Below, one piece after another: positions 1-62,653 of a stretch of DNA of 64,000 nt; position 1 is the first letter of the stretch; each line of letters begins with the position of its first letter. The position numbers and the translations under genes were made by a program. This DNA is from an uncultured Acidimicrobiaceae bacterium (GTDB lineage Bacteria; Actinomycetota; Acidimicrobiia; Acidimicrobiales; Ilumatobacteraceae), in assembly GCA_903919455.1 (NCBI GenBank), contig CAIXIJ010000072.1:36007-100006 (forward strand), in the 5' to 3' direction. A model generated the notes under the pieces. The model was not told the DNA's origin and ran no database searches. It was given only the letters and a program-made list of their open reading frames with translations.

Positions 1-1075
1 ACAGCGTGAGGTTCTCGAGGCCGAGTAGGTCCTTGTAGTCCTGCACCTGAGCGGCAACTTCCTCAGGGGTGCCGAGGAGGATGGTGCGCTGCTTGATCGA
101 CTCTTCGAGGTCGGGGATGAGGCCGGGCTTGACGGGACGTCCGTCTTCGCCCATGTAGCCGCGGCTCCAGCCGTAGGGCCCGAGGAACTTCCAGAACTCG
201 TCGTGGCCGTTGCGGGCGGTGCGCATGGCCTCTTCGTGGGTGTCCTCGATGCGCACGCTCACGACGAGCATTCGCTGCTCATGCGCCTTGAGGCCAGGGC
301 CGTGGGCCTCCTCGTGCACCTCGCCGTAGCGGTCCCACATGCGCTTGATGAACATCGGGTTCTGGTTCCAGAACACGGCGCCGTGGTTCACCTTCGGGGT
401 GTACTCCACCGTGGGCGGGCTGGTGGCTGCCTGCCAGATCTCGAAGGGATAGATCGGCCGGGGGATGAGCGTGAGGTCCTGTACGGTCTCGCCGCGGTCG
501 GGGATGCCGGGCACCGGCAACTGGAAGTACTTGCCGTCCATTCTGAAACGCTCTTGGGTGAGCGCCATACGGATGATGTCCATCTGCTCTTCGAAGAGTT
601 CGCGGTTCTTCGCATCGTCGGCCGACTGGTCGGGGTTGTCGTGCGAGCCGATAGAGACAGCGAAGTCGTTGAGGTGCAGGATCTCGCGGGGCACGGTGCC
701 GCGACCGACGCCGAGGATGCCTCGGCCGCCACTGAGGTTGTGCATCGTGGCGAAGTCTTCGGCGAGGCGGAGCGGGTTCCACTGCGGCACCACATTGAAC
801 ATCGCTCCGAGTCGGAGGTTCTTGGTGCGGGCGGCGATCCAGGCGCTGATGAGGATGCCGTTGGGGATGACCTCGTAGCCCTCGTACTGGAAGTGGTGTT
901 CGGTGGTCCAGAAGCTGTCGTACCCGAGTCGGTCGGCCTCGGTGGCTGCGTCGATGTACTTCAGCGTTGCGTCCCAACAGGCCTGATTGTCGTAGCGACG
1001 ATCCATCGGGTTCGGGAGTCCGGCGCCGGCGTCGGTCATCTCGACGCCGCCGAAGAAGAATGCACCAATTTTCAT
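1..1075 (-). CDS. LLM-class flavin-dependent oxidoreductase (3' end outside window)
   Basis: A luciferase-like monooxygenase fold protein, expected to use FMN or F420 in the cytoplasm. The ATG is at 1075 and about 358 residues are visible before the window edge, so the last few tens of residues are missing. Seen: N-terminal MKIGAFFFGGVEMTDAG, the TTEHHF motif after the first helix, and the LSGGRGILGVGRG stretch that is typical of the family's phosphate-binding region. Codon structure is clean throughout. Substrate is not predictable. A perfect AT-rich palindrome lies 18 bp upstream of the start. The family assignment is secure. Confidence 0.9.
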   Translation of the reverse strand, partial: MKIGAFFFGGVEMTDAGAGLPNPMDRRYDNQACWDATLKYIDAATEADRLGYDSFWTTEHHFQYEGYEVIPNGILISAWIAARTKNLRLGAMFNVVPQWNPLRLAEDFATMHNLSGGRGILGVGRGTVPREILHLNDFAVSIGSHDNPDQSADDAKNRELFEEQMDIIRMALTQERFRMDGKYFQLPVPGIPDRGETVQDLTLIPRPIYPFEIWQAATSPPTVEYTPKVNHGAVFWNQNPMFIKRMWDRYGEVHEEAHGPGLKAHEQRMLVVSVRIEDTHEEAMRTARNGHDEFWKFLGPYGWSRGYMGEDGRPVKPGLIPDLEESIKQRTILLGTPEEVAAQVQDYKDLLGLENLTL

Positions 1076-1092
1076 GGACGGACCGTAGCAGA

Positions 1093-1111
1093 ATATTGAT
1101 GTCGTCAATAT
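1093..1111. promoter_or_regulatory. Operator-like palindrome upstream of LLM oxidoreductase
   Basis: Perfect inverted repeat ATATTGA-TGTCG-TCAATAT (7-bp arms, 5-bp centre) in an AT-rich spot of an otherwise GC-rich gap, 18 bp before the start of the leftward oxidoreductase and just past the end of the MFS gene. Its size and position suit a TetR/GntR-type operator. The binding protein is unknown. Confidence 0.5.
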
Positions 1112-1117
1112 GACGAG

Positions 1118-2269
1118 TCAGCGCGGACGCTGGGTGATGGCACCCAATGCGGCCAGCGCAGGCACCACCAGCAGGGCCCAGCGCAGCCCGACCACGTCGG
1201 CCATCACACCGAGAGCGAGCGGACCCAAGGTGACCGCAACCCCGGACGCCAGCGCGCAGTAGGCACCCATGCTGACCGAGTCCAGTCGGTCGCCGGCCTG
1301 CTCATAGAACGCATCGACGGTGAGCGGGTAGAGCGGGCCGCCGCCGAAACCCACCATCGTGAGGCCGAGCACCTTTGCCGGCAGGCCGGGAGCGAAGCAC
1401 ATCACCAGCGCACCTGCTCCGGTGACGACAAACGACAGGCTGATTGTGGCCGCGCCGAAGCGAGTGAGCAGGCGAGGCAGCAGCACACGCACCAGAAACA
1501 TCATCACCCCGAACACGCTGGCCAGCACCGCTGCAGTACCGGCGGCGGCGTTACCCACCTCGTGGAGGTAGGTGACGGCCCAGATGCCGATGGTGAACTC
1601 GGTGAGCACAGCGTTCACGATGTGCAGCCACGGCAACAGGACGGCACGGTCTCGGAGCGGAGCGAGCGAGAACGTTCCGGCCCGATCGCCTTCGGGCACG
1701 GGCACGGGCCAGGCGACAAAGGCCAACGCCAAGGCGAACGCGAACGTGATGACCAGATATGGCGGCCGCCACGACAGGCCGGCTGAGAGGAAGCCACCGA
1801 TCACCAGGCTGAACGTGAGGCCGGCCAGACCGGGTACGCCGTTCACCGCCGCGAACGCGGTGGCGCGGTGCTCGCCATGGTGGTCGCTGATGAGGCCGGG
1901 CATCACCATCACCATCAGTGCACCGCCGCCTCCCGTCAGCGCGGTGCCGAACAACGTGATGGGCCACGCCGGGCCGAGACACAGCAGCGTCACGCCCACG
2001 GCGATCGACCCGGCAGCCAGGCGGAGCGCCGAGCGCCGCCCGATGCGATCCACGAGGCCCACTCCCCACACGCCGGCAGCGAGCAGGCCGACGCCGAAGG
2101 TGCTGCCGTGCAGTGCCGCCACGACGCCGCTGATGTGGAACTGGCTGCGCAGCTCACCCAGTACCACACCCACGCTGAGGCCCGCCACGAGTACGCAGTA
2201 GCCGAGGGCCGAGGCGGCCGTCAGCCGATCCCACCGGAACCTGGTGGGTTCGGCGGTCGTCGTAGTCAC
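1118..2269 (-). CDS. MFS transporter
   Basis: Integral membrane transporter of the major facilitator superfamily, 383 residues. The GTG at 2269 (VTTTTAEPTRF) is preferred: the frame stays open further upstream, but that extension is Arg/Pro/His-rich, has no membrane segment and runs antisense through the divergent sigma-factor gene. Seen: about 12 hydrophobic segments and the MFS loop 2-3 signature in the form VDRIGRRSALR. Substrate unknown; no neighbour indicates it. Confidence 0.85.
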   Translation of the reverse strand: MTTTTAEPTRFRWDRLTAASALGYCVLVAGLSVGVVLGELRSQFHISGVVAALHGSTFGVGLLAAGVWGVGLVDRIGRRSALRLAAGSIAVGVTLLCLGPAWPITLFGTALTGGGGALMVMVMPGLISDHHGEHRATAFAAVNGVPGLAGLTFSLVIGGFLSAGLSWRPPYLVITFAFALALAFVAWPVPVPEGDRAGTFSLAPLRDRAVLLPWLHIVNAVLTEFTIGIWAVTYLHEVGNAAAGTAAVLASVFGVMMFLVRVLLPRLLTRFGAATISLSFVVTGAGALVMCFAPGLPAKVLGLTMVGFGGGPLYPLTVDAFYEQAGDRLDSVSMGAYCALASGVAVTLGPLALGVMADVVGLRWALLVVPALAALGAITQRPR

Positions 2270-2325
2270 CCGTCCAGTGTGGCAAATCCTGAAAGGAATC
2301 GGACGTTGGTAGACATGGACCTCGC

Positions 2326-2862
2326 GTGAACGATCGCCGAGTGAGATTCGAGGTGCTCTTCGGAGTGGTGTATGAGCCCTTGCAGCGCTATGCATTGCGA
2401 CGCACCGATCCCGCCACCGCCGACGATGTGGTGGCCGATGCGTTGCTGGTGCTGTGGCGACGGCTCGACGAGGTGCCCGACGACGCCGTGCTGCCGTGGT
2501 GCTACGGCGTGGCTCGTCGTTGCCTGGCGAACCGTCGGCGCAGTGCCGATCGGCAGGCGGGCGTGATGGATCGTTTGATGGGTGAGCGCCCGCCCTCGCC
2601 GGTGGAGGTGGATCCCGCGTTGGAGGCTGCCCTCGCAACGCTCGACGTCGACGACCGGGAACTCGTTCGCCTCTGGGCGTGGGAGCAGTTGCCGCCCAGG
2701 GAGATCGCGGTAGTGCTCGGCATTAGCGCCAATGCGGCGTCGATCCGGATCCATCGTGCAAAGGGCCGACTCGCCGCCGCGCTGGGCGGAAAGAACGGGG
2801 TCGGTGCCGGACACGGAGGGGTCGGGAACACTCCCGTCGAGCGTCAGCAGGAGGCGACATGA
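2326..2862 (+). CDS. ECF-type RNA polymerase sigma factor
   Basis: A 178-residue sigma-70 family factor of extracytoplasmic-function size. Region 2 is at residues about 8-70 (FGVVYEPLQRYALRR then DDVVADALLVLWRRL) and region 4 at about 90-150, with the HTH PPREIAVVLGISANAASIRI. A GTG start at 2326 places residue 1 just before region 2. The last four bases overlap the next gene as ATGA, so the two are translationally coupled, the usual layout for a sigma factor and its membrane partner. It is divergent from the MFS gene. Confidence 0.88.
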   Translation: MNDRRVRFEVLFGVVYEPLQRYALRRTDPATADDVVADALLVLWRRLDEVPDDAVLPWCYGVARRCLANRRRSADRQAGVMDRLMGERPPSPVEVDPALEAALATLDVDDRELVRLWAWEQLPPREIAVVLGISANAASIRIHRAKGRLAAALGGKNGVGAGHGGVGNTPVERQQEAT

Positions 2863-3482
2863 ACAGCGACCAGCAACACGACGAACTGTTCGAACGGCTC
2901 ACCCGCCTGGACCCGGTTGGCAGTGCACCCATGGAATCAGCCAACGGCCCTCGTGCCGCAGCACTCATGGAGCAGATCATGCAGACCGACTTCAACCCCG
3001 CGGCACCCGTACCGTCACCCACCCGGCGACGCCGCCCACTCCTGCTCGCCATCGGCGGGTTGGCGCTCGCCAGCGTCGCAGTTGTTGGATTCGTCGCCTT
3101 CCGCAGCGACAACGCCACAGCACCCACCACGCTGGCGCTGTCGGTCGGGGCGTCGGCAGCGGGCACCCGATGCATGCAGCTCGATGCCTCCACCTCGCAG
3201 CCGGACGGCACGGTGGCCTTCCGCGGCACCGTGGCATCCATCGCAGGCACCACCGTCACGCTCGATGTCACTGCGTGGTACGCCAACGGCACCGCCGATC
3301 AGGTGGTGGTCACCACCGGTACCGCCGACGGCACCGTCGACCCCGAGCTGTCGGCATCCTTCGAACAGGGCGGCGACTACCTCGTCTCGGCCGTCGATGG
3401 ACAGGTGAACGGCTGCGGAATGACCGGGCCGTACAGCGCCGAGCTCGAGGCGCTCTACATGGGATGGTTCCCTGCTCCCTAG
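2859..3482 (+). CDS. Membrane protein coupled to the ECF sigma factor (possible anti-sigma)
   Basis: A 207-residue protein with a cytoplasmic N-terminal part of about 60 residues, one membrane segment (residues about 65-83, LLLAIGGLALASVAVVGFVA) and an extracellular domain of about 120 residues. It has no zinc-binding HxxxCxxC motif, so it is not a classical ZAS anti-sigma factor. The ATGA overlap with the sigma gene and the one-TM topology suggest it controls that sigma factor or is a co-expressed surface protein. No domain family is recognised in the outer part. Confidence 0.7.
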   Translation: MNSDQQHDELFERLTRLDPVGSAPMESANGPRAAALMEQIMQTDFNPAAPVPSPTRRRRPLLLAIGGLALASVAVVGFVAFRSDNATAPTTLALSVGASAAGTRCMQLDASTSQPDGTVAFRGTVASIAGTTVTLDVTAWYANGTADQVVVTTGTADGTVDPELSASFEQGGDYLVSAVDGQVNGCGMTGPYSAELEALYMGWFPAP

Positions 3483-3491
3483 AGTGTCCCC

Positions 3492-5480
3492 ATGCTCCTC
3501 GGCATCGACACCGGCGGCACGTACACCGATGCCGTGCTCTACGACGAAGCCACCCGAACCGTGGTGGCGAAGGCGAAATCGCCGACCACCCACCATGAGT
3601 TATCGATCGGCATCTGCGGCGCGATCGACGCCGTGCTTGCCGCGGCGTCGATCGCACCCGAGCGCATCGAGCTGGTGTCGCTGAGCACCACACTGGCCAC
3701 CAACGCGTTGGTGGAGGGCAAGGGCCGACGCGTGGGCGCCGTGATCATCGGGTTCGACGGCGACGTGTTGGAGCGCGCCGGTCTCGGTGAAGCATTGGGC
3801 GACGATCCTGCGTTCATCCTGGCGGGCGGTCACGATCCGCACGGTGGTGCTGTCGCCCCGCTCGACACCGAACGTCTGGCCACCGAGGTGGCAGCGATGG
3901 CTCCGCGAGTGGAGGCCTTCGCCGTGACGGCGCAGTTCAGCGTGCGCAACCCGGAACACGAGTTGGCGGCCGCTGCAGTGATCCGTGAGGTCACCGGTAT
4001 GCCGGTCACCTTGAGTCATCACCTCTCGGCCAAGTTGAACGGCCCGAAGCGTGCGGTGACCGCGGTGCTGAACGCTCGGCTCATCTCCATCATCGACGGG
4101 CTGGTGCGCACCACCGAGGCGGCGTTGCTCGAACGAGGTGTGCACGCCCCTCTGATGGTGGTGCGTGGCGACGGCTCGTTGGTGTCGGCGGCATTCGTGC
4201 GCGAGCGCCCCATCGAGACCATTCTCAGTGGCCCAGCCGCCAGTCTGGTGGGAGCTGCGCACCTCACCGAACTGGCCGATGCCATCATCAGCGACATCGG
4301 TGGCACCACCACCGACGTAGCGGTACTGCGCGACGGCATACCGGCGGTGAGCCCCGATGGCGCCACCGTCGGAGGGCATCAGACCATGGTGTCGGCCGTT
4401 GCCATGCACACGCATGGTTTGGGCGGCGACAGCCGCGTGCGTCACGACGAACGCACTGCCAACACTGTGCTGCACATCGGGCCTCGCAAGGTGGTGCCGC
4501 TCTGTCAGTTGGCAGTGGAAGAGCCGAAGTTGGTGCACGGCATGCTCGATCTGCACCTCACCTACTTCAACCCCGGCGATCTCGACGGCGTCGTGCTGAT
4601 TGCCGAACGCTACGAGGAGCGCATGGCGATGCTGGAGGGTGTGGAGCGCCAGGTGTTGGAGAACATGGGCGGTCGGGTGGCCGTGGCATCTACGGCGCTG
4701 AACACGTTGCAGCTACGGCGCGTGATGGAGCGATTGGTGCAACGCGGTGTGTTGCAGATCGCGGCGTTCACGCCCACCGACGCCAGCCACGTGCTGGGTA
4801 TCCAGGCCACCTACGACACGGTTGCGGCGCGGAAGGCAGCGGAGTTGTTCGCGCGCAATCGCAACCGCATGGGCAAGGCCATCGCCCCGGATGCAGAGAC
4901 GATTGCCGGCATCACCATCGACACGTTGGTGCGACGCAGTGCCGAGGCGGTGTTGGCTGCTGCCTTCATCAATGACGGACTACCTGCCGAAACCGTGTCG
5001 CAACCGGTGGTGCAGGCGGTGCTCGACCGGCGCCTCGAGGTGGTGCGGTTGGGTCTTGGCCTGTCGGCACCGCTGGTGGGCCTCGGTGCATCGGCGCCTG
5101 CTTACTACCCGCGGGTGGCGGCACTCCTGGGTGCCGAGTCGCGCATTCCCGCCCATGCAGATGTGGCCAACGCCGTGGGCGCCGTCGTGGGGCGAGTTCG
5201 TATGACCCGTGAGTGCACGGTCAGTTCACCGGCGCAAGGGCAGTTCGTGGTGCACGCCGGCGAGGCGCCGCAGGTGTTCATCGATCTGCTGAAGGCGCGC
5301 TCGTTTGCGCTCGAGCACCTGACGGCCGCGTTGCATCACGACATGGTGACGGCCGGCGCGCCGGTGTTCGAGACCCGCGAGCAGTGGGTGGAGCAAACGG
5401 TGGCCGTCGATGGCCTCGAGTTGTTCGTGGAGGGCCGACTCACGCTCACCGCGAGCGGCCGCCCCGAACTGGCTCAGTAG
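3492..5480 (+). CDS. hyuA: Hydantoinase/oxoprolinase family protein (HyuA-like)
   Basis: A 662-residue protein of the ATP-dependent hydantoinase/5-oxoprolinase A family, which opens cyclic amides at ATP cost. Seen: N-terminal LGIDTGGTYTDAVLYDE, which is the actin-like ATP-binding phosphate-1 loop of this family; the STTLATNALVEGKGRRVG segment; and the central DIGGTTTDVAVLRDG second phosphate loop. It starts with ATG 10 bp after the preceding gene. The usual HyuB partner is absent here, so it may act alone or with a B subunit elsewhere. It overlaps the convergent helicase gene by 7 bp. Confidence 0.85.
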   Translation: MLLGIDTGGTYTDAVLYDEATRTVVAKAKSPTTHHELSIGICGAIDAVLAAASIAPERIELVSLSTTLATNALVEGKGRRVGAVIIGFDGDVLERAGLGEALGDDPAFILAGGHDPHGGAVAPLDTERLATEVAAMAPRVEAFAVTAQFSVRNPEHELAAAAVIREVTGMPVTLSHHLSAKLNGPKRAVTAVLNARLISIIDGLVRTTEAALLERGVHAPLMVVRGDGSLVSAAFVRERPIETILSGPAASLVGAAHLTELADAIISDIGGTTTDVAVLRDGIPAVSPDGATVGGHQTMVSAVAMHTHGLGGDSRVRHDERTANTVLHIGPRKVVPLCQLAVEEPKLVHGMLDLHLTYFNPGDLDGVVLIAERYEERMAMLEGVERQVLENMGGRVAVASTALNTLQLRRVMERLVQRGVLQIAAFTPTDASHVLGIQATYDTVAARKAAELFARNRNRMGKAIAPDAETIAGITIDTLVRRSAEAVLAAAFINDGLPAETVSQPVVQAVLDRRLEVVRLGLGLSAPLVGLGASAPAYYPRVAALLGAESRIPAHADVANAVGAVVGRVRMTRECTVSSPAQGQFVVHAGEAPQVFIDLLKARSFALEHLTAALHHDMVTAGAPVFETREQWVEQTVAVDGLELFVEGRLTLTASGRPELAQ

Positions 5481-7288
5481 GTCTTCTTGGCGTACGGCTT
5501 CTTGCCCTCGTAGGGCTTCTTGTCGCCGTAGGTCTTCTTCTCGTACGGCTTCTTGCCCTCGTAACCCTTGCTGGGCCCGTTGTCGACGTACTTGCGCACC
5601 TGGGCGGCCTTGCCACGGATGACCGTGTTCTTCAACTGGCCGATGACGGTGTCGAGGCGGCCCTCGGGCACACCCACCACCGAGTATGAGTCGGTGATGC
5701 GAATGGGGCCGATCTCGCGGCCGGTGAGGCCGGTCTCGTTGGCGATTGCGCCCACCAGGTCGTTCGGGCGGATGCCGGCCTTGCGACCCACACCGACATA
5801 GATGAACGCCGTGCCTGCCTGCGGTGTGCCGCCGGACTCGCGGGTGCGACTCTGTTCGCGCGGCTCGAACTTGCGCTCGGGACGTGCCTGCACGTCGGGG
5901 ATCTCGTGCTCGTCGACCGTGTTGCCTGCTGCCTCGTGGTACAGGCGAATGGCGGCGAGCGCCACGGAGCGCGGGTCGGCTTCGGCGCGCAGGGCATGCA
6001 GCACCGGGTGGAAGTCGTCGAGGTCGTCGGCGGCCAGCGACTCGCGGATGGCGGCCACGGTTTGCTCGAGTTGCGCAGCGCGCAGGTCGGCAATGCTGGG
6101 CACCTTCTCGATAGCGATTACCTGCTTGGTGAGGTGCTCGATGTTCTTCAGGAGACGCTGCTCGCGCGGCTCGGCGAGCGTGATGGCCACGCCTTCGCGC
6201 CCGGCACGGCCCACGCGGCCGATGCGGTGCACATAGCTCTCCGGGGCCGACGGCACGTCGTAGTTCACCACGTGGGTGAGCGTGTCGACGTCGAGGCCGC
6301 GAGCAGCCACGTCGGTGGCCACCAGCAGTTCGGCGGTTCCATCACGAAGTCGGTTCATGACGCGGTCGCGCTGGCCCTGGTCCATGCCGCCGTGCAGGGC
6401 TTCGGCGCGGTAGCCGCGGATGTTCATGGTCTCGGTGAGCTGGTCGACCTCGGTGCGGGTGCGGCAGAACACGAGGGCGCCGCCCGGCGACTCGATGTCG
6501 AGGACGCGGCCGAGCGCGGCGGGCTTGTGGGCCCGGGGCACGATGTAGGCGATCTGGCGAACCTTGCCCTTGCTGGCCTTGGTGTCGCCGCGCACCACGT
6601 TGATGCGCACAGGGTCGTGCAGGTGGCGCTTGGCGATGGCGTTGATGCGCGGCGGCATGGTGGCCGAGAACATCACCGTCTGGTGCTCTGCGGGAATGCT
6701 CTCGAGGATGCTCTCGATGTCGTCGGCGAAGCCCATGTCGAGCATCTCGTCGGCCTCGTCGAGCACCACCATCTTGATGCTGTCGAGGGGCAGCGAACCG
6801 CGGCCGATGTGGTCGAGCACGCGGCCGGGGGTGCCGACCACGATGTGTACGCCACGATCGAGTTGCTGCAACTGACGGAAGATCGGGGTGCCGCCGTAGA
6901 CCGGCACGCACTTGGCGCCGAGATCCTTGCCGTAGCGGAAGAACGCCTCGCTCACCTGCATGGCGAGTTCGCGTGTGGGGGTGAGGATCAGTGCGAGGGG
7001 GCCCGACTTCGGGGCACCCTTGATAAGGGCCAGTGCCGGCAGCGCGAAAGCGGCGGTCTTGCCGGTGCCCGTCGCCGCCTGGCCCACGAGGTCTTTGCCC
7101 TCGAGCAGGTGGGGGATGGTCTCGCGCTGAATGGGGGTGGGCTCTTCGTAGCCGAGCCCTTCGAGCGCTTCGAGCAACTCGTCGCGCAGGCCGAGGGTGG
7201 CGAAGCCGTTCTCAGTGGCGGGGGCCACCTCGACGGCGACGTCAGCAGTGACATCAATGTCGGTGTCGGGGTGGTCTTCCATGTGCAT
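5474..7288 (-). CDS. deaD: DEAD-box ATP-dependent RNA helicase (DeaD/CsdA type)
   Basis: RNA helicase of about 604 residues, used for ribosome assembly or cold adaptation. All core motifs are visible: AATGTGKT (I), PTRELA (Ia), GTPGR (Ib), DEAD (II), SATMP (III), ARGLDV (V) and HRIGRVGRAG (VI). After the RecA-like domains comes a DbpA/CsdA-type RNA-binding domain (VGVGRKAGIRPNDLVGAI) and a C-terminal tail of repeated KKPY/KKTY units. The start is set at 7288, where GGAAG lies 5 nt upstream; the ATG at 7282 is equally possible, and the longer start at 7318 has no ribosome site. Confidence 0.93.
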   Translation of the reverse strand: MHMEDHPDTDIDVTADVAVEVAPATENGFATLGLRDELLEALEGLGYEEPTPIQRETIPHLLEGKDLVGQAATGTGKTAAFALPALALIKGAPKSGPLALILTPTRELAMQVSEAFFRYGKDLGAKCVPVYGGTPIFRQLQQLDRGVHIVVGTPGRVLDHIGRGSLPLDSIKMVVLDEADEMLDMGFADDIESILESIPAEHQTVMFSATMPPRINAIAKRHLHDPVRINVVRGDTKASKGKVRQIAYIVPRAHKPAALGRVLDIESPGGALVFCRTRTEVDQLTETMNIRGYRAEALHGGMDQGQRDRVMNRLRDGTAELLVATDVAARGLDVDTLTHVVNYDVPSAPESYVHRIGRVGRAGREGVAITLAEPREQRLLKNIEHLTKQVIAIEKVPSIADLRAAQLEQTVAAIRESLAADDLDDFHPVLHALRAEADPRSVALAAIRLYHEAAGNTVDEHEIPDVQARPERKFEPREQSRTRESGGTPQAGTAFIYVGVGRKAGIRPNDLVGAIANETGLTGREIGPIRITDSYSVVGVPEGRLDTVIGQLKNTVIRGKAAQVRKYVDNGPSKGYEGKKPYEKKTYGDKKPYEGKKPYAKKTY

Positions 7289-7319
7289 TCCTACTTCCAA
7301 AAAACGGTAACACTCCACC

Positions 7320-10292
7320 CTACGGCGTAATCAGCGCCAGAACTCGGGACAGTGCGTCCGCGAGGGCATCGGCGTGCGTGACATCGAACACGATGGGCGG
7401 CTTGATCTTCAGCACGTTGTCGGCGGGTCCGTCGGTGCTGATGAGCACGCCGACATCGCGCATCGCGTTGGCCACATCGCTGGCGAGCGCGGTGGCGGGG
7501 GCCTTGGTGGCGCGATCCGTCACGAGATCCACGCCGATGTAGAGGCCCAGGCCGCGCACATCGCCGATGAGCGGATGATCGAGGGCGCGGAGCCTCGTGA
7601 GCAGGTGGTTACCGGTGCGCAGAGCATTGGCCTGCAGACCCTCGGCCTCGATGACATCGAGCACCGCCATGCCTGCGGCGCAGCTCACCGGGTTGCCGCC
7701 GAACGTGTTGAACCACTCCATGCCATTCGCAAATGCGGCAGCCAAAGCCGGTGTGGTGACGACGGCACCGAGCGGGTGACCGTTGCCGATGGGCTTGCCC
7801 AGCGTGACGATGTCGGGCACCACGCCCTGCGTCTCGAACGCCCACATGTGACTACCGACACGACCGAAGCCCACCTGAACTTCATCAGCGATGCACAGCG
7901 CACCGCGGGTGCGGGCTTGGCGGTAGGCCTCGGCGAGATAGCCGTCGGGAAACACCACCTGGCCGCCGCAGCCGCTGATGCTCTCGGCGATGAACGCAGC
8001 GGCGGGCGGCAGGTCGGCGATGGCGGCCGCGTAGGCCGGGCCATCGGCACCGAACCGGCCACGGTATGGGTCGGGCAGTTCGGCCAGGTGGGTGTGGTCG
8101 GGCTTGCCTGCGCCGCCCTTGCGGTTGAACTTGTAGGCGCTCACGTCGACACACGCCTGTGTGTTGCCGTGGTAGCCCCAATCCACGGCTACGACATCGC
8201 GCCGACCGGTGACGGTGCGGGCGATTCGCAACGCCAGTTCGTTCGCTTCGCTGCCGGAGTTCACCAGAAAGACCACGCTCAGCGGGTCGGGGAACGTGGC
8301 CGCAAGGCGCTCGGCGTAATCGAGGATGGTGCGGTGGAGGTAGCGGGTGTTCGTGTTCAACACCGCCGCCTGACGGGCGATGGCCTCCACCACGTGCGGG
8401 TGGGCGTGACCCACGTGGGCAACGTTGTTCACCGCATCCAGGTAAGCGCGACCGGTGTGGTCGATGAGCCAGGCGCCGTCGCCGCGCACGATGCTGAGTG
8501 GCCGTCGGTAGCTGATGCTCAGCGAGGGTCCGAGATCCGCGCTGCGCCGCGGGGCGAGCGCTGTCGGAGTTTCGTCGGCGTGGTCCTCGAAGGTCTCGGG
8601 GGCGAGTCGTAGCAACAGGTTGGAGTCGGGGGCGATGCTGCGCCACACATCCATACGGCTCGGCTCACCGGCGCCTTCGAAGTTGCCGTCGGGGCCGTGC
8701 TGGGGGTCGGCCATCAGGTCGGTGATGATCTGCACGTGCACGTGCGGCGCCCAGCCACCGTTCACTGTGTGATCCCCGATGTATGCCACCACCTGCCCGG
8801 CTTTCACTTGGTCGCCGGGCCGCACGGTGGTGAGCGTGCGACGCGAGAGATGGCCGTAGAGCACCCAGAACGGGCCGGCGTTGCCTGCCTCGTGGCGAAT
8901 GATCACGGTGGGGCCGTAGTCGTACGGCATGTCGTTGTCGACCACGGTCTCCACCACGCCGGGCAACATTGCGTGCAGCGGGGTTTCGGCCTCCACGAAG
9001 AGGTCGATGCCGATGTGCGTGGAGCGCATCTCGGGCGCATCGGTAACGAACTGGTCGCCCTGATAGCACGAACGGTCCTCGTCGTAGCGGCCGATGGCCA
9101 CGGAGGCGTCGTGCTCGGCGAACTGCGCCTGAATCCAGCGCCAACTCTCCACAGGGTCGGCAATGGCGGTGAGTGGTGCACCGTCGGCGAGGCTCACCAC
9201 GATGCGTCCGGTGGTGCGCAGCGACCACGGCAGGATGTCGACGGGCGCGCACTCGGGCGACCGCAGCCACGCCACCACGGCGTCGTGGTTCGGCACGGGG
9301 GTGAGGCCCGCAGCGGCTCGGGCGACGAAGTGCAGGAACTGCGGCCGCATGCCCATCAGGCGGCGGAGCAACCGCACAGCGGGTTCGCGAGAGATGAGGA
9401 GGTACTCGTTGTCGGGGAACTCGCGGCTGCGGTGCGACGAGATGGCGATGCTCATCGCCAGTCGCGTGGCGGCGAGATCCCACACCACCGAGAGTTCGTC
9501 GTCGGTGAGAGCGAACTCGGCGATGTAGCCGCCGATCACGTCGCGGCCGGCGGCCACAAGGTCGGGCGTGTCGAGCAGGGCGTAGGCCAGCGTGACGGCC
9601 AGTTCGTTCACCTGGCGGGCGAACAGCATGTCGCCGAAGTCGATGATGCCGGTGACAACGCCATCGTGCACCAGCACGTTGTGGTCGTTCGCGTCCTGGT
9701 GCACCACAGCCGAACGAAGGTGCGGAAGTAGGGGAGCAACTCGTTGTTCGTGGCGACGGAAGGCCTGCTGCACCAGTTGCTTGATCTCGGGTTCGACGAT
9801 GTCGTCCACCCATTGCAGCACCGCAGTGGCGTGGTCGAGATTCCAGAGGAATTCGGGGCGATGGGCGCCCGGGTGTCCAAAGCCCTGAAGGGCACGACTG
9901 AGTCGGCCAACCATGGTGCCGAGCGAGCGGCGAAGTTCTGGGGTGGCAGCGACGAGTGCGTACGGCACCCCGGGCAGGTGAGTGACGGCCCGCACGAGGT
10001 GGTCGTTCCACTGCGTGTTGCCGGGTGGCACCACGTGAGGCACACCCAGAGCAGGGTCGACCCCACGAAGGTGTTCGAGCGCCGCCTGCTGAAGGTCGAG
10101 CGTCTGTGGATCCTCCGCCACGTGGGCCACCTTCAACACGAACGACCCGTCGGCGGTGTCCACTCGCACGTTCTGGTCTCGCTCGGATGTGAGCTCGGCG
10201 ATGCTGCCGTGCAGCCCGTAGATGGAGGCAGCGAGGTGTTGCAACTGTGCGGCCGTAAGCGCAGGGGGAGGGGAGTCGAAGACGGAACGCAT
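7320..10292 (-). CDS. Fusion: APH-type kinase + M23 peptidase + class III aminotransferase
   Basis: A 990-residue three-domain protein. Residues about 1-335 form an aminoglycoside-phosphotransferase/choline-kinase fold with the catalytic loop [13 protein letters not shown] and IIDFGD. Residues about 400-560 form an M23-like (LytM) domain with HIGID near 423 and HVHVQI near 518, the metal-ligand pattern. Residues about 580-990 form a class III PLP aminotransferase with [14 protein letters not shown] and the PLP lysine in [12 protein letters not shown] near 831. Similar architectures are known among relatives of AGXT2L phospho-lyases. I infer that the kinase makes a phospho-amino-alcohol that the PLP domain cleaves. 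The role of the M23 domain is unclear. Confidence 0.85.
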
Positions 10293-56375: not shown

Positions 56376-56514
56376 GAGGCGCCCGGTCGACTGCCGGACG
56401 CCTCGCGGAACTTGTGGGGGTCTGAGCGAGATGAAAGAAAGGCATGGTCAGAGGAGTCGTGCTTCGGCCGTCTAGGTGTGGGCTTCACACGCGAATCGGC
56501 GTTCGTTTACACGG
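56376..56514 (+). repeat. Left copy of an imperfect direct repeat (pair with 62414-62545)
   Basis: The copies share order and sequence: a CCCGG/CCGG hairpin (here GAGGCGCCCGG...CCGGACGCCTC with one mismatch, 56376-56404), then GTGGGG, AGCGA, ATGAAA, TCAGAGG, and a final block at 56485-56514 that matches 62516-62545 in 27 of 30 bases. The 37 bases before that block match ungapped in 22. The right end of this copy lies in the first codons of the decarboxylase remnant. Confidence 0.65.
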
Positions 56515-57152
56515 CCGGCACGACGAGTTCCGGTGAGATCGAATCGCTCGATGCCGGGCGCGGCGCCCGTTGGCGCCACATCGACGCGGCATGGGCAGGT
56601 CCGCTGCGGCTCAGCGACCGCCACCGCCATCTGCTCGATGGCATCGAGCAGGCCGACAGTGTGGCGATCTCGGCCCACAAGTGGCTCTTCCAGCCGAAGG
56701 AATCCGCGTTCGTGCTGTTCGCCGACCACGAGGCGGCGCACCGGTCCATCAGCGTCGACGGCGCATACCTGGCCGTTCCGAACGTCGGGATTCTGGGATC
56801 ACACGGCGCCGTCGCAGCGCCGCTCGTCGCCATGCTCCTGGCATATGGTCGTGAAGGAGTTGCCGGCATGATCGACCGGACGATGGAACTCGTCGAGGAT
56901 CTCGCCGAACTGGTCGACGCCCACGACGATCTCGAATCGAGATCAGCCCCGAGCAGCGGCGTGCTGTGCTGGCGCCACCGGCGCGTGAGCGTCGACGACA
57001 TCAAGCGGCATCTTCCTGAGGGCGTCTTGGTGTCCACCACGGCCATCAACGGTGAGCCGTGGCTCCGCTCGGTCGCGGCCAATCCCAGTGCCGACCCAGC
57101 CAACGTCGTTGCCGGCGTGCTGCAGGCCGCCAGCAACTTCAACGCACCGTGA
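56476..57152 (+). pseudogene. C-terminal remnant of a group II PLP-dependent decarboxylase
   Basis: The frame ending at 57152 matches the second half of the aromatic-amino-acid/glutamate decarboxylase family: FVYTAGTTSSGEIESLD, WRHIDAAWAGPL, and the PLP lysine in SAHKWLFQPKESAFVLF. The C-terminal domain then runs to a normal end. The first 200 or more residues, with the substrate pocket and most of the large domain, are missing, and no start codon with a ribosome site precedes the match. The decay point coincides with the left direct repeat. It is judged non-functional. Confidence 0.75.
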
Positions 57153-57169
57153 ACTGGGCGCTCGGGTGA

Positions 57170-57340
57170 ATCACCCCGCCGACCTTCTCGCCCGCCGGGT
57201 CCAGACTCTCCCCGGCCGAACTACGCGAGACGCTCATCACGCTTGCCCCCTACGCCGGTTACCCGCGTGTGGTCGGACTCGTTGGTGAATGCGAAGGCGT
57301 CATCGCCAAGTGGAACAAAGAGCAGCAAGCCCCTGCGTAG
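57170..57340 (+). pseudogene. C-terminal remnant of a carboxymuconolactone decarboxylase-like gene
   Basis: Between a TGA at 57167 and a TAG at 57338 one frame reads TFSPAGSRLSPAELRETLIT followed by APYAGYPRVVGLVGECEGVI. This is the ELRE-T-L-YAGYP C-terminal signature of the carboxymuconolactone decarboxylase/AhpD-like family. The start codon, N-terminus and catalytic CxxC part are absent. With the adjacent decarboxylase remnant it shows this is a deletion-scarred region. Confidence 0.65.
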
Positions 57341-57350
57341 CGCTCACCGT

Positions 57351-57368
57351 GAAAGGTTGGCGAAAGGT
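57351..57368 (+). promoter_or_regulatory. SARP-type operator (two GAAAGGT heptamers, 11-bp phase)
   Basis: GAAAGGT at 57351-57357 and again at 57362-57368, starting 11 bp apart, upstream of the phytanoyl-CoA dioxygenase-like gene. Eight bases after the second copy is CATCCT, a weak -10, and 7 bases further the ATG, so transcripts may be leaderless. The spacer and flank (TTGGC, CTGT) also match the second site at 61184-61212. Confidence 0.75.
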
Positions 57369-57388
57369 CTGTGGTTCATCCTTAGACC

Positions 57389-58234
57389 ATGGACATTCCT
57401 CACCTGCCTTCAACTTCGTCGCTCGACGAAGTCATGCAGCACATCGACCTCGCCGGAGCAGTGATCATCGACCGCCTCTTCGCCGGGTCCGTGCTCGATG
57501 CTCTGAGCCGAGATCTTGCTCCGTATCTGCGCTCGAAGCCCGCCGGCAGCCAAACCGGCAACGAGTCGCAGCAATCATTCCACGGGCCCCGCACCACACG
57601 TTTCGGCGGGCTCGCCGGCAAATCCGCAGCGTTCGTTGATGTGCTACTCAACCCACTAGTGCTCGGCGCGGCAGAGCAACTTCTGCTGCCCGCTTGCGGT
57701 GCCATCCAGTGCGCCGGCACACAAGTGATGGCCATCGGGCCGGGCGAGCCGGCACAGTACCTGCACCGCGACCAAGGCGCTTGGCAAACTCTCGTCGAGG
57801 CCGACTTCGCCCCCGAGCTCGCGATGTCGGCGATGGTCGCAATCACTGATTTCACCGCCGCGAATGGCGCCACCCGCGTGAGCCCCGGAACGCACAAAAT
57901 GGCGCGAACCGATTTCGCTGCGTTTGATGAAGGTCTGGTGAAGCAGGCCGAGATGGAGGCCGGATCGGTATTGCTCTACACCTCAAAGGTGGTGCACAGC
58001 GGAGGCGCTAACCAGACGAACGCGACACGGGTCGGTATGCACATCTTCTTCGCCCTTGGCTGGTTGCGCTCTGAGGAGGCTCATCAGATCGCTCTCTCGA
58101 AAGACGATGCGATTCGTTTACCCGAGCGGGCGCGGAGCCTGCTGGGATTCGGCGCATACGATGGCGACCAATACGGCGGCGGCCGCTTGTGGACTGTGGA
58201 TTACGACGACCCTGCGGCGTTGTATCGGGTCTGA
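57389..58234 (+). CDS. Phytanoyl-CoA dioxygenase (PhyH) family protein
   Basis: A 281-residue Fe(II)/2-oxoglutarate-dependent oxygenase. The iron facial triad is visible: HxD in QYLHRDQGAW (about residue 125-127) and the distal His in TSKVVHSGGANQT (about 203). The 2-oxoglutarate Arg is in NATRVGMHIFFALGW (about 213). Such enzymes hydroxylate lipids or natural-product intermediates. Codon choice favours GTC/GAA more than the GTG-rich genes to the left. Its promoter carries two SARP-type heptamers and its downstream neighbour is a SARP regulator, so a role in a specialised pathway is likely. Confidence 0.88.
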   Translation: MDIPHLPSTSSLDEVMQHIDLAGAVIIDRLFAGSVLDALSRDLAPYLRSKPAGSQTGNESQQSFHGPRTTRFGGLAGKSAAFVDVLLNPLVLGAAEQLLLPACGAIQCAGTQVMAIGPGEPAQYLHRDQGAWQTLVEADFAPELAMSAMVAITDFTAANGATRVSPGTHKMARTDFAAFDEGLVKQAEMEAGSVLLYTSKVVHSGGANQTNATRVGMHIFFALGWLRSEEAHQIALSKDDAIRLPERARSLLGFGAYDGDQYGGGRLWTVDYDDPAALYRV

Positions 58235-58286
58235 CCGTCGACGTTGCGCCCTTCCCAGCCCTGCGGAGATATGTGAAAGTTTGGCC

Positions 58287-61163
58287 GTGACTATCTCGGT
58301 TCTGGGCCGCGCACGACTGCGCGGGCAAGAAATTCCCTCAGCGAGACAGCGCCGGCTCGTCGCCGCACTGGTGCTGCACCGTGGGTCCGACGTTTCGAGC
58401 GGGCGGCTCGCTGAATACATCTGGGGCGAGCAGCAACCAGCCGACCCAAGCGCCGCGCTACACACGCTGGTCTCGCGTGTTCGCACGATGCTGCCCGATA
58501 CCGCAATCATCGAAGCGTTGCGAGGCAGCTACCGGCTTGTTGCGCCCACAGGCGTGATCGATATCGACCGAGTGCTTCATTGGCGAGCCGCAATCGCTGA
58601 GCTCAATACCTCTGAGCAGCCGGCGGCGATTGATGAGTTCCTCGCGTTGTATACGGGCGAACCCTTCGTCGACATTGATGACATCGACGCCATCGCCGCG
58701 CGAGAGCAGGCCCTCGAACTTCGAGTGGGCTTACTTGAGGCTCGAGCCGAATCAGCGATCTTGGCCGGGAATGTCGACGCCGCAATCATCACGCTGCGCG
58801 AAGTTCTCATCGAGCGACCCGACCGCGAATCGTCCGCAGCGTTGCTGATGGAAACGCTGTACCGCAGCGGTCGGCAACCCGAAGCACTGGCCGTATACGC
58901 CACCTTGCGTGACCACCTGCTCAACGAGTTCGGGGTGGATCCAACGCCTCGGCTGTCCGAGCTAGAAGTCGCGATTCTGCGCCACGACCTCACGCCCACG
59001 GCGCCCCCCGCTGACGCACCGAGGAGCATCCGCCGAGCCACGATGCCGCATCGGGCGAGCAGCTTTGTGGGCCGCGGCCACGAGGTAGACGGACTGGCTG
59101 CATTGCTCACCCGCGTCAGGTTCGTCACCGTGCTTGGCCCAGGCGGAATCGGCAAGACCAGCCTCGCGTCTGAAGTCGCAACGAAGGTCGAGGGCGTCGG
59201 CACTCGTGTCGTTGTGGCCGAACTCGCCGACCTTGCTGAGGGAACCGACCTTGCTGCAGCAGTTGCCGGTCGAATCAAAGCCCCAACCCAAGCCACAGAG
59301 TCGCCACAGGATGCCCTTGCCCACCACCTCGCGAGCGCTCCCACTCTGCTGTACCTAGACAACTGCGAGCATCTCCTCGAGAGCGTGGCCGATCTCATCG
59401 CAACCCTGCTGGGGGCGTCACCCACTCTGCGCATCCTCGCAACCAGCAGAGAACCGATCGGCGCCGAGGGCGAGCACCGCTGGGTGATTCACGGCCTGCC
59501 AATAGCCGACGCCGAGCAGTTGTTCGTAGATCGAGCAGGTGCTGCACGTGCGGAAGCAGAGTCGTTGCGCGGCGACGCACGCGTTCGGCTGTTGTGCGAA
59601 CGACTTGATGGCGTTCCTCTAGCGCTTGAACTCGCAGCCAGGGCATTGGCCTATCTGTCCCTCGACGAGATCATCAGTGGTCTCGACAATCGATTCGAGC
59701 TACTCAACCGCAACCGACGCTCTGCTCCCAATCGCCATCAAAGTCTGGAGGCAACTCTCGATTGGTCGTACCAACGACTGCAACCGTTCGAACAGCAGGC
59801 CTTCGATCGGCTGGGGGTGTTTGCCGGAACTTTCAGCGCCGAAGATGCGCGTCAATTGGTAGGACCGCATGCCGCCGATGTCATTGCGACTCTGGTCGAC
59901 CGATCGCTGGTGGGTGTCGACCCTCTCGCAACGCCGGCCCGATACGAACTGCTCGACACGATGCGCGCGTATGCCCGGCGCAATCGGGGTGATCAACTCG
60001 ACATCGATCGGGCTGCGCTCGCCCACTTCGTATTGGACTATGCCATTACGGCCTCGGCACGCACGTCGGGGCCGGATGAGTCGAAGTGGTTCAACGACCT
60101 TCGAGCGAGCATGGCCAACCTCCGACAGGCATACCAATTTTTCGTCGAGACGCGCAACGACAACCACCGCGTGCGCCTCGTTGCTGCGCTCGCCATGTGG
60201 GCATGGCAATGCGACCAAGCCGAGGTTCTGGCGTGGGCGCTTGAGACCGCCCTCGACGTCTCCGTCACCGACCCTGAACTTGCGGCGTACGCATTTGCCG
60301 CTGCAACCATCACGCGGTCTCGATCGAATGAGTTGTTCGAAGGCGCCGACACAGCACAGCGAGCCGCGATCGTCACGCAATCAACAGGCGGCGTGGCAGC
60401 AGCGCTGAGTTTCTACGCTGCGGCCGAAGTCGGGCTGTTTCGCGGCGAGTTCAGCTCGGCCGAGCAGTCGGCGCTTCGCGCGTACAGCTTCGGCGTGGCT
60501 GCAGGCGACGCCCCCGGGGCGCGGGCAGCGACATTCTTCGCAGCGATTGATGCGGCATTAGCGATCATCTATTCGGGCCGCTCCGCAGAGGCCGGAATCT
60601 GGATCGACACAGCTCATCGTTTGGCAATCGAACTCGACAGCGCGGGCGCTCATGCTTGGGTCGAATTCACTCAGGCCGACGCGGCATTCAGTAGTGGCGA
60701 CATCGACCGAGCGCTCGAGCATATGAACCGTTGCGTCGCTCTGATCGACGGGTCACAACACTCGTTCCTAGCCGGCGTGGCCGACCTCTCGCTTGCGACG
60801 CTCGCTTCGGCCCAGAACGGGCTGAAGCCCGGAACCGTCCGACGCGACCTGCTCTTGTCGGTCTTTGAGCGCTGGCAAACCACCATGTCGTGGGCCCAGG
60901 CAACGCTCGGCCTACGCCTGCTCGCTGCGGCGTTGGCGGCCGAGGGGCAGAGCCTCAACGCTGCGGTGATACTGGGCGCGTTTTTCGCCTCGGCTGTAGA
61001 CCCCGGCGACGCTCGGATCCAAATGGCCGAGACCTTGTCACGGTTGAGTGGCGACCTGTCCGACGGAGAGCTGCAGCGCTTGCTTGCCCAAGGAGGCGCC
61101 ATGTCGCTTCACGACGCTGTGCAACATGCGATCGAGATTCTGACCGACTCGTTACCCAACTGA
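58287..61163 (+). CDS. AfsR/SARP-type regulator: winged helix + BTAD + NB-ARC + TPR-like
   Basis: A 958-residue transcription activator in the size class of AfsR. The start is the GTG at 58287 (TISVLGRARLRGQEIPSARQ), where the OmpR-type winged helix begins; it ends near residue 90 after GSYRLVAP. A BTAD follows (about 95-240), then an NB-ARC ATPase with Walker A LGPGGIGKTSLA (about 283), Walker B LLYLDNCEH (about 354), ATSREPIG and RLDGVPLALELAARAL, then about 400 residues of helical repeats. It should bind heptamers at 11-bp intervals and activate with ATP. Candidate targets lie on both sides at 57351 and 61184. Only a single half-site-like GAAAGTT (58275) precedes its own start. Confidence 0.9.
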   Translation: MTISVLGRARLRGQEIPSARQRRLVAALVLHRGSDVSSGRLAEYIWGEQQPADPSAALHTLVSRVRTMLPDTAIIEALRGSYRLVAPTGVIDIDRVLHWRAAIAELNTSEQPAAIDEFLALYTGEPFVDIDDIDAIAAREQALELRVGLLEARAESAILAGNVDAAIITLREVLIERPDRESSAALLMETLYRSGRQPEALAVYATLRDHLLNEFGVDPTPRLSELEVAILRHDLTPTAPPADAPRSIRRATMPHRASSFVGRGHEVDGLAALLTRVRFVTVLGPGGIGKTSLASEVATKVEGVGTRVVVAELADLAEGTDLAAAVAGRIKAPTQATESPQDALAHHLASAPTLLYLDNCEHLLESVADLIATLLGASPTLRILATSREPIGAEGEHRWVIHGLPIADAEQLFVDRAGAARAEAESLRGDARVRLLCERLDGVPLALELAARALAYLSLDEIISGLDNRFELLNRNRRSAPNRHQSLEATLDWSYQRLQPFEQQAFDRLGVFAGTFSAEDARQLVGPHAADVIATLVDRSLVGVDPLATPARYELLDTMRAYARRNRGDQLDIDRAALAHFVLDYAITASARTSGPDESKWFNDLRASMANLRQAYQFFVETRNDNHRVRLVAALAMWAWQCDQAEVLAWALETALDVSVTDPELAAYAFAAATITRSRSNELFEGADTAQRAAIVTQSTGGVAAALSFYAAAEVGLFRGEFSSAEQSALRAYSFGVAAGDAPGARAATFFAAIDAALAIIYSGRSAEAGIWIDTAHRLAIELDSAGAHAWVEFTQADAAFSSGDIDRALEHMNRCVALIDGSQHSFLAGVADLSLATLASAQNGLKPGTVRRDLLLSVFERWQTTMSWAQATLGLRLLAAALAAEGQSLNAAVILGAFFASAVDPGDARIQMAETLSRLSGDLSDGELQRLLAQGGAMSLHDAVQHAIEILTDSLPN

Positions 61164-61183
61164 GCTCTACGCAACTGGTCACT

Positions 61184-61226
61184 GAAACGTCGGCGAAAGG
61201 TTGATGAAAGGTCTGTTGACGACAAT
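61184..61226 (+). promoter_or_regulatory. SARP-type operator (three heptamers, 11-bp phase) and -10 box
   Basis: GAAACGT (61184-61190), GAAAGGT (61195-61201) and GAAAGGT (61206-61212) start exactly 11 bp apart. Exactly 8 bp after the last copy is GACAAT (61221-61226), a good -10. Three phased heptamers with 8 bp to the -10 is the published geometry of SARP/AfsR activation sites. The site lies 51 bp upstream of the homocysteine S-methyltransferase start. Confidence 0.82.
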
Positions 61227-61262
61227 GACGACAACACCCCACCATCTACCGGAGGCGCACTC

Positions 61263-62204
61263 ATGGCCCTATATCGCAACTCGCTCCCACAACTCAGCGG
61301 AGAAATCTTTCTCATCGACGGCGGCATTGAGACATCGCTCATCTTTGACCAAGGATTAGACCTGCCCTTGTTCGCGGCGTATCCCCTGCTCGATACCGTT
61401 GAGGGCCGTGCCGCCCTGCGGATCTACCTTGCCCCCTATCTCGACCTCGCGAGCGACCACGGCACGGGCTTCATCATCGAGACACCCACATGGCGGGCCA
61501 ACGCCGACTGGGGCGCCCAGCTCGGTCACGACGCTGCTGAACTCGACCGCTTCAACAGGCTGGCGGTTGACGTCGCCCTCGAAACGCGCCACTCGTGCGA
61601 GGTCGTGGCACCGGTATTGATCTCTGGCCTGCTCGGCCCACGCGGCGACGGCTATGTCGTTGATCAAGTCATGACCCCAGCCGATGCCGCCGCGTATCAC
61701 CACGCGCAGATCGCCACCTTCGCCGACACCGAAGCCGACCTCATCACCGCGATCACGATGACCACCGCCGAAGAAGCCACGGGTGTCGTGCTCGCTGCCA
61801 AAGCGTTGAACATGCCTGCAGTCATTGGGTTTACCGTCGAGACCGACGGACGTTTGCCATCAGGCATGTCGTTGGGCGAGGCCATCACTGCGGTCGACAA
61901 CGCCACCGATTCATGGGCCGCGTACTTCATGATCAACTGCGCTCACCCAACGCACTTTGCTGACGCTCTCGATTCGAGCGAGCCATGGACCACCCGAATC
62001 CAATCGATCCGCGCCAACGCTTCGATGATGAGCCACGAGGAACTCAACGAAGCCGAAGTGCTCGATGCTGGCGATCCCGCCGACCTCGCTGCGCGTTACC
62101 TCTCGCTGCGCGAGATGCTGCCGCGAATCAATGTTGTGGGCGGATGCTGCGGCACCGACCATCGACACATCGCAGCGATCGCCCAAGCGCTGGCGCCTAT
62201 CTGA
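61263..62204 (+). CDS. mmuM: Homocysteine S-methyltransferase family protein
   Basis: A 313-residue zinc enzyme that moves a methyl group from S-methylmethionine or SAM to homocysteine. Seen: the start FLIDGGIETSLIFDQGLDLP, the first zinc Cys in MINCAHPTHF (about residue 226), and the paired zinc cysteines in VVGGCCGTDHRHIAAIA (about 294-296). GGAGG seven bases before the ATG is a strong ribosome site. Its promoter carries a three-repeat SARP operator, so it probably supplies or removes methyl units for the pathway controlled by the adjacent regulator. Use on a non-homocysteine thiol cannot be excluded. Confidence 0.88.
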   Translation: MALYRNSLPQLSGEIFLIDGGIETSLIFDQGLDLPLFAAYPLLDTVEGRAALRIYLAPYLDLASDHGTGFIIETPTWRANADWGAQLGHDAAELDRFNRLAVDVALETRHSCEVVAPVLISGLLGPRGDGYVVDQVMTPADAAAYHHAQIATFADTEADLITAITMTTAEEATGVVLAAKALNMPAVIGFTVETDGRLPSGMSLGEAITAVDNATDSWAAYFMINCAHPTHFADALDSSEPWTTRIQSIRANASMMSHEELNEAEVLDAGDPADLAARYLSLREMLPRINVVGGCCGTDHRHIAAIAQALAPI

Positions 62205-62653
62205 GAATTCGGGTCTTGCCGAAGATGGCGCGTCGTCAGCAGTCGAGGCTCGACCGATGCTTGCTTTCGGTCAGTCTCAGCGAACCGTACGAGCGCAAAG
62301 ACGGGCATTTGTGGTGCTCGAAGCTCATTGCGGCTGCGATACCACTCAGAGAGTCTGGCGGTGTCCCCGGTGCACCCCCGGGTTGAGCCGGGGGCGACCA
62401 AAGTATTTCGGGAATGTAACCCGGTTATTCCGGGCACACCCCTCGGTGGGGTGTTAGCGAAATAGATGAAATCCCTGCTCAGAGGTGGTGGACAACGGGC
62501 GGCTCGGTGGACCTCTCACACGCCAATCGCCGTTCGTTCACACGGGACTGCTGAGCAGTTGCTCCTCGCAATCGACGCTGTCGAGGGTGCGAGGCTCTTG
62601 CACAGGAGCGTGCTCATCGCGTCCAGGTGTCCGTCACGGGCGCTGGAGGGAAA
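62205..62653. other. 449-bp intergenic region with three hairpins
   Basis: No convincing gene on either strand between the convergent methyltransferase genes. It holds three dyads: CCCCCGG-GTTGAG-CCGGGGG (62375-62394), an imperfect GGAAT..AACC-C-GGTT.ATTCC dyad that includes CCCGG-TTATT-CCGGG (about 62411-62434), and ACACCCC-TCGGT-GGGGTGT (62436-62454). The first probably terminates the homocysteine methyltransferase transcript. The right direct repeat begins at the second. Confidence 0.6.
62414..62545 (+). repeat. Right copy of the imperfect direct repeat (pair with 56376-56514)
   Basis: Same order of landmarks as the left copy: a CCCGG/CCGGG hairpin, GTGGGG, AGCGA, ATGAAA, TCAGAGG and the 30-bp block 62516-62545. 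From AGCGA to the 30-bp block the distance is 60 bp in both copies. A further similarity, GGCGCT...AATCACCTCGCCGACCTTC at 62640-62670, matches 57159-57187 beyond the decarboxylase remnant, as if this copy had lost about 550 bp in between. Confidence 0.6.

Follow-up and report, generated by a model that had tools for sequence, protein, structure and literature searches.

The question raised by this locus is whether a large regulator of the Streptomyces antibiotic regulatory protein (SARP) family controls the genes on either side of it, and through which DNA sites. The locus lies in a 64,000-nucleotide stretch from an uncultured Acidimicrobiaceae bacterium (hereafter the window; G000:C72:36007-100006), belonging to a 3.55-Mb assembly that is 97% complete, and presents three plus-strand genes in a row, encoding a PhyH-type dioxygenase, a 958-residue regulator and a homocysteine S-methyltransferase family protein (HMT). 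The features listed below point to a local circuit in which an AfsR-type SARP probably activates the predicted PhyH and HMT genes through paired GAAAGGT heptamers. Two close relatives of the locus, L034 and L033, belong to the assemblies G852 and G853, from another genus of the same family.

57351..57372, plus strand: predicted SARP operator before PhyH, GAAAGGT-TGGC-GAAAGGT-CTGT (sequence reading, pattern search)
57377..57382, plus strand: predicted -10 hexamer CATCCT, 8 bp past the last PhyH heptamer (sequence reading)
57389..58234, plus strand: PhyH-type Fe(II)/2-oxoglutarate dioxygenase, 281 aa (Pfam, alignment)
58287..61163, plus strand: large SARP regulator, 958 aa, GTG start, with winged helix, BTAD, STAND NTPase (Walker A at 284) and TPR-like C-terminus (Pfam, solved relatives, alignment)
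61184..61190, plus strand: degenerate third heptamer GAAACGT (6/7), not conserved in G852/G853 (sequence reading, comparison)
61195..61216, plus strand: predicted SARP operator before HMT, GAAAGGT-TGAT-GAAAGGT-CTGT, conserved in G852/G853 (sequence reading, comparison)
61221..61226, plus strand: predicted -10 hexamer GACAAT, 8 bp past the last HMT heptamer, conserved in G852/G853 (sequence reading, comparison)
61263..62204, plus strand: homocysteine S-methyltransferase family protein, 313 aa (Pfam, alignment)
57205..57340, plus strand: 3' remnant of a carboxymuconolactone-decarboxylase (CMD)-family gene, intact upstream of the SARP gene in L034 (comparison)

Phased heptamers at the two promoters

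A pattern search of the window located exact instances of GAAAGGT at 57351-57357 and 57362-57368, upstream of the PhyH gene, and at 61195-61201 and 61206-61212, upstream of the HMT gene, all on the plus strand, with one further single instance at 50125 on the minus strand. The start positions lie 11 bp apart at both promoters, confirming the exact register claimed in the initial annotation. Four of the five heptamers named there (57351, 57362, 61184, 61195 and 61206) are exact, while the one at 61184 is a 6/7 match that is not conserved. As had been described, exactly eight bases (61213-61220) separate the last HMT heptamer from the GACAAT box; the last PhyH heptamer is likewise separated by eight bases from CATCCT, a hexamer absent from that annotation, and the two hexamers share an A in second and a T in sixth position. 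The 22-nt copies at 57351-57372 and 61195-61216 are 91% identical, and they include the TTG and CTGT flanks previously noted as common to both.

In the available part of a structural study of AfsR (PMC10936776), SARP operators are described as direct repeats with an 11- or 22-bp spacing whose 3' copy lies 8 bp from the -10 element, and the likeness to SARP/AfsR operators proposed for this locus matches that published geometry. The heptameric direct repeats, the 11-bp period and the 8-bp distance to the -10 element are all present at both promoters, the -10 boxes themselves being predictions.

Searches beyond the two promoters outlined a narrow distribution for this arrangement. The exact pair GAAAGGTN4GAAAGGT occurs twice in the 3.55-Mb assembly, both times at these promoters and beside the regulator gene, against 0.007 instances expected from the base composition of the window, in agreement with the self-contained regulon put forward initially. 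Allowing up to two mismatches, 12 pair sites were found in the assembly, three of them here and partly overlapping, versus 1 for the reversed control. Within the window, GAAAGGT was the only heptamer with an 11-bp tandem pair at two places, and any such heptamer was seen in 1 of 60 shuffles; among the 23 spacings compared (8 to 30), one twice-paired heptamer was also seen at spacing 8 and two at spacing 30. A longer pattern fitting only the HMT operator was present in none of the 394 other genomes of a class sample that excludes G852 and G853.

The PhyH ATG lies 6 bp after CATCCT and no ribosome-binding site was seen by eye; because the start codon is so close to the -10 hexamer, the PhyH mRNA is predicted to be leaderless. 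A scan for consensus sigma-70 promoters gave 0 matches. A single half-site, GAAAGTT, was also observed at 58275-58281, 5 bp before the SARP start codon, and is present in L033 and L034 too; it could represent a site of weak self-binding or a chance match.

The regulator and its predicted target enzymes

Judged by its sequence, the regulator is a large SARP of the AfsR type. Pfam searches identified a Trans_reg_C winged helix (PF00486; 27.6 bits, cut-off 26.2), a BTAD domain (PF03704; 80.1 bits, cut-off 22.1) and an AAA_16 domain (33.8 bits, cut-off 32.6), and the NTPase region presents a Walker A motif at 284 and LLYLDN at 354. The BTAD/NB-ARC regulator of 958 residues that had been placed between the two promoters hence stands in its length, its position and its BTAD and AAA_16 domains, but the NB-ARC match falls just below its cut-off (22.6 versus 23.5 bits). 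The nearest solved structures by sequence are those of AfsR (8k60, 8jke and 8hvr; 111 bits over residues 17-588), whereas the score against the NCBIfam AfsR equivalog NF053617 is far below its cut-off (136.6 of 1430 bits), and the protein is therefore AfsR-like and not AfsR itself. In AfsR, residues T88 and R92 are reported to contact bases, according to the available part of PMC10936776. By our count on the alignment, T60 and R64 of the regulator align gaplessly with these two residues, and the same positions are T and R in all eight close orthologues (P0241-P0248).

The PhyH-type protein matches PF05721 with 95.1 bits. Its residues H126, D128, H203 and R214 are invariant in all 121 rows of an alignment comprising the query and 120 listed relatives, the format used for all residue counts given here; we take the first three to form the HxD...H iron site and R214 to be the 2-oxoglutarate arginine. 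The ectoine hydroxylase model TIGR02408 was not reached (20.3 of 336.5 bits), and the nearest solved relatives include DhiD, AndA, SwnH2, TlxJ and AsqJ, several of which are presumably fungal natural-product enzymes; a literature search on DhiD returned nothing.

The HMT protein matches PF02574 with 129.9 bits and presents three cysteines (C226, C295 and C296) that are invariant in 121/121 rows and presumably form the zinc site. It scores below every equivalog cut-off, including those of the MmuM-type (PRK09485, 66.2/215 bits), BHMT-type (PRK07534, 55.5/338) and MetH (TIGR02082, 33.1/1010.85) models. It is the sole PF02574 protein found in its assembly; G852 and G853 each gave three matches. 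No MetH activation domain (Met_synt_B12) was found in any of these three genomes; MetE was not searched for.

The locus in related genomes

A peptide-pattern scan of genome contigs identified L033 and L034 as close relatives of the locus and gave one partial match of 35%, L035. The segment spanning the SARP and HMT genes (58217-62228) is 92.9% identical in DNA to its counterparts in G852 and G853, while the rpoB regions are only 81-84% identical. Conversely, the rpoB region is 91.7% identical to that of G002, from the window's own genus, but the HMT proteins share only 75% identity. The much greater similarity of the SARP-HMT segment than of rpoB between genera leads us to infer that this segment moved between genera.

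Of the HMT leader, G852 and G853 conserve both exact heptamers and, at the same 8-bp distance, GACAAT; the degenerate third heptamer is missing. From the first conserved heptamer to just past GACAAT, 34 of 35 bases are identical between genera; further upstream, an 11-bp gap and many changes are observed. Exact pairs number two in G000 and one each in G852 and G853, and none were detected in G002, G009, G034 and G848, relatives without the SARP-HMT pair (G848 itself was not searched for SARPs). Recurrence of the heptamers in related genomes was thus seen in the three genomes with this regulator and in none of the four without it, but it does not extend to the PhyH promoter. The gene trio is not conserved: BLAST boundaries indicate that positions 57334-58216, encompassing the PhyH operator and the PhyH gene except for its final 18 bases, are replaced in G852 and G853 by 16 other bases, and only 40-41% identical PhyH relatives occur elsewhere in these genomes. 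Since PhyH is missing together with its own operator, it is likely, on this comparison, that the regulon gained or lost the two in a single piece.

Among SARP proteins, the orthologues at 44-47% identity (701-808 bits) are well separated from the next group (up to 383 bits). The longest contig is equal for SARP orthologues (46-47%) and HMT orthologues (75-78%) in two cases, at 61224 for P0242 and P0123 and at 27371 for P0245 and P0131. Each of these pairs therefore appears to lie on one contig, which would make the association of SARP and HMT older than these genomes.

Two broader patterns were considered and rejected. The operator does not always precede HMT homologues, as only G852 and G853 present the pair among 15 other HMT loci; of the 13 pairless ones, L044 starts at a contig end, so that its upstream region is unreadable, and in G002 GAAAGGT occurs once, at -61. 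Nor is the operator the same in the PhyH clusters of G774, G444 and G775 described below.

The surroundings of the three genes present additional features. Where the window has only a 3' remnant, G852 and G853 harbour an intact CMD gene upstream of SARP. In L034, positions 562-7920 upstream of the SARP gene encode an iron alcohol dehydrogenase, an aldehyde dehydrogenase, an SDR protein, a TetR protein, a P450, an NAD-binding dehydrogenase and the intact CMD protein, and blastn detected nothing shared between this region and the window except the CMD remnant. The window also contains a C-terminal remnant of a pyridoxal-dependent decarboxylase (56478-57152; profile positions 204-373 of 375). Imperfect direct repeats of about 130 bp (56382-56514 and 62420-62545; score 85, maximum 57 in 200 shuffles) bracket the whole 6-kb segment, each ending in a 30-bp core (56485-56514 and 62516-62545), and the decarboxylase remnant starts approximately at the left core. 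The pattern common to both cores has no further copy in the assembly at up to three mismatches, and the flanking repeats may be an integration or recombination site.

PhyH surroundings were inspected at 14 loci (G000, G774, G775, the seven family loci L086-L092 with flanks of up to 1.5 kb per side, G444, G600, G372 and G418), and HMT was found near PhyH in three of them: the window, G774 and G444. In G774 (L107) and G444 (L103) PhyH adjoins HMT, with a gene for a winged-helix STAND regulator in the opposite direction; an additional small reading frame was noticed by eye before PhyH in G774. The same kind of regulator lies beside PhyH in G775 (L096), HMT being absent from its 7.6-kb contig. These three regulators resemble the SARP in combining a winged helix, here far above the cut-off, with an NTPase-type region, for which models score above the cut-off in G444 and G775 and below it in G774; a TPR model passes only in G775. 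They differ from it in that a profile search found no BTAD domain and in their identity, which is 52-57% among themselves and 27-29% to the SARP. The upstream motif also differs: CAAGCTCCTCAG is common to all three loci, with 16 of 20 columns invariant (maximum 11 in 30 shuffle trials), and neither GAAAGGT in the loci examined nor spacing-11 identical heptamers upstream of PhyH were found. In a PhyH tree that placed the window protein and 12 loci, without L088, among 66 of the 120 listed proteins, the four PhyH proteins with an adjoining regulator fall on one side of a well-supported branch (100/96) and the nine other loci of the tree on the other. The recurrence of the PhyH-HMT pairing in two other lineages indicates that it is not an accident of this genome, and the SARP with its heptamers appears to be one of at least two ways of controlling it.

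HMT homologues at 53-55% identity were also observed in L108 (G530), L109 (G577) and L110 (G673) with an adjoining STAND NTPase gene that, by eye, seemingly lacks an N-terminal winged helix; in L108 and L110 the arrangement CTCAC-N3-GTGAG...CTCACGCC was seen by eye before HMT.

The proposed circuit, its alternatives and known systems

In the circuit proposed here, the 958-residue regulator would bind GAAAGGT pairs 11 bp apart, 8 bp upstream of the predicted -10 hexamer, and would recruit RNA polymerase to the PhyH and HMT genes. By analogy with AfsR and PimR, a side-by-side dimer on the two heptamers may substitute for contact with the -35 element, and inhibition may be relieved when the NTPase domain binds ATP and a signal is present. 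A gap of 52 bp, in which no terminator-like site was found, separates PhyH from the SARP gene; activation of the PhyH promoter would therefore probably also raise SARP levels via read-through, establishing a positive feedback that would be lacking in G852 and G853. As to function, PhyH might oxidise and HMT demethylate a methylated small molecule, the methyl group being passed to homocysteine. The sequence evidence is most consistent with a SARP that activates HMT and, in this genome, would also activate PhyH and, by read-through, itself.

Several observations weigh against this reading. The TPR_2 and TPR_12 matches in the C-terminus of the regulator fall below the Pfam cut-offs. The base-contacting T and R are common among SARPs (58/121 and 85/121 rows) and hence carry no information on this heptamer, and 11-bp heptamer repeats were rejected as a general feature upstream of SARP genes of this order, since no enrichment was observed at 12 loci (L002-L013, up to 1000 bp upstream), where spacing 11 gave 5 matches, all from one L004 repeat, versus 13 for spacing 12 and 11 for spacing 18. 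Operator conservation is modest evidence: at neutral rates set to the divergence at third codon positions in the two genes (12% and 17%), a 35-mer with at most one change is expected in 1 in 15 to 1 in 81 cases, and the 14 heptamer bases would remain unchanged by chance in 17% and 7%. Furthermore, the G852 and G853 loci are near-copies (99.1% identical) and so count as one independent comparison, and, with two mismatches allowed, the numbers of sites in the relatives do not greatly exceed those of the reversed control (sites/control 8/4 in G852, 5/2 in G853, 7/3 in G034, 8/5 in G848, 3/4 in G002 and 1/0 in G009). The HMT orthologues of G002 and G009, in the same genus, lack both SARP and operator. 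Finally, CATCCT is a poor -10 box, and the scan in which 57000-62600 yielded no plus-strand terminator-like site is insensitive here (1 found versus a mean of 3.8 in shuffles).

An unlikely alternative is that another regulator or a special sigma factor uses the heptamer pairs, and that the SARP acts elsewhere. This order is rich in SARP relatives and the assembly contains a second SARP match, so that a non-local SARP could act, and binding of the local protein to the pairs is itself predicted from sequence. Against this stand the restriction of the exact pairs to the three genomes found with this SARP, always beside its gene, and a spacing and -10 distance that are those of SARP operators. 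It is rather improbable that HMT is the only real target and the PhyH block a recent insertion with a leftover promoter devoid of real control. The absence of PhyH from this place in G852 and G853, the mosaic of gene remnants in the segment and the weak PhyH -10 box are compatible with such an origin, but both heptamers of the PhyH operator are perfect and exactly phased, the CTGT flank recurs there, PhyH has intact catalytic residues, and PhyH and HMT also occur together in G774 and G444. That the phased heptamers are chance repeats is very improbable. Tandem pairs of some identical heptamer at 11 bp are indeed common in the window (14 versus a mean of 8.1 in 60 shuffles) and single GAAAGGT is not clearly enriched there (5 seen versus 2.58 expected, with at least 5 in 11 of 100 shuffles), but the same pair recurs at both flanking promoters far beyond the genome-wide expectation and is conserved across genera before HMT.

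Local activation by the SARP remains the preferred reading, and a more speculative extension of it can be offered tentatively. PhyH and HMT might constitute an undescribed two-enzyme module for a methylated small molecule, repeatedly captured within this order by STAND regulators that are gated by ATP and carry exchangeable DNA-binding heads (a SARP head here, a plain winged helix in G774 and G444); the regulon would have grown here by taking up PhyH with a ready-made copy of the operator, turning a one-gene activator into a self-amplifying switch.

The kind of operator is known, but the heptamer and the predicted targets look new in the literature searched. Searches combining GAAAGGT with SARP, and SARP with homocysteine methyltransferase, gave only papers unrelated by title; those for SARP in Ilumatobacter or Acidimicrobiia returned nothing on this subject by title, and those for HMT with a PhyH gene cluster only an Aspergillus proteomics paper. 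If correct, the proposed circuit would place a SARP switch, known mainly from antibiotic-making bacteria, outside antibiotic synthesis, and it would be small enough for in vitro rebuilding. The genomes with and without the PhyH block would provide a natural before-and-after pair for a regulon gaining a gene and its operator, and the proximity of PhyH and HMT suggests a pathway for methyl groups, testable by feeding candidate methyl donors.

Among known systems, EmbR of Mycobacterium tuberculosis (PDB 2fez, 2ff4) is a SARP-type regulator of non-antibiotic genes. It shares the winged helix and BTAD of the regulator described here, but it has other targets and, as stated in the available part of PMC10936776, an FHA domain in place of the NTPase and repeats. 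PimR and other SARP-LAL regulators, as presented in the available part of PMC5930380, likewise use heptamers with 4-bp spacers, a minimum of two and two or three per operator; they differ in their CGGCAAG heptamers, in their association with antifungal gene clusters in Streptomyces and in that the PimR operator does not lie over the -35 element. A further parallel is AfsR acting on the afs box of the afsS promoter in Streptomyces coelicolor. According to the available part of PMC10936776, it presents the same combination of SARP and NTPase, followed by C-terminal repeats that are putative in the regulator described here, the same two 11-bp direct repeats 8 bp from a weak -10 box and the conserved T88/R92. 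The two systems differ in the recognised sequence, which is CGTT(T/C)ATCGNN for AfsR in the accessible part of PMC10972967 and would be the heptamer GAAAGGT here, and in their targets, afsS in the case of AfsR and, as predicted here, an oxygenase and a methyltransferase.

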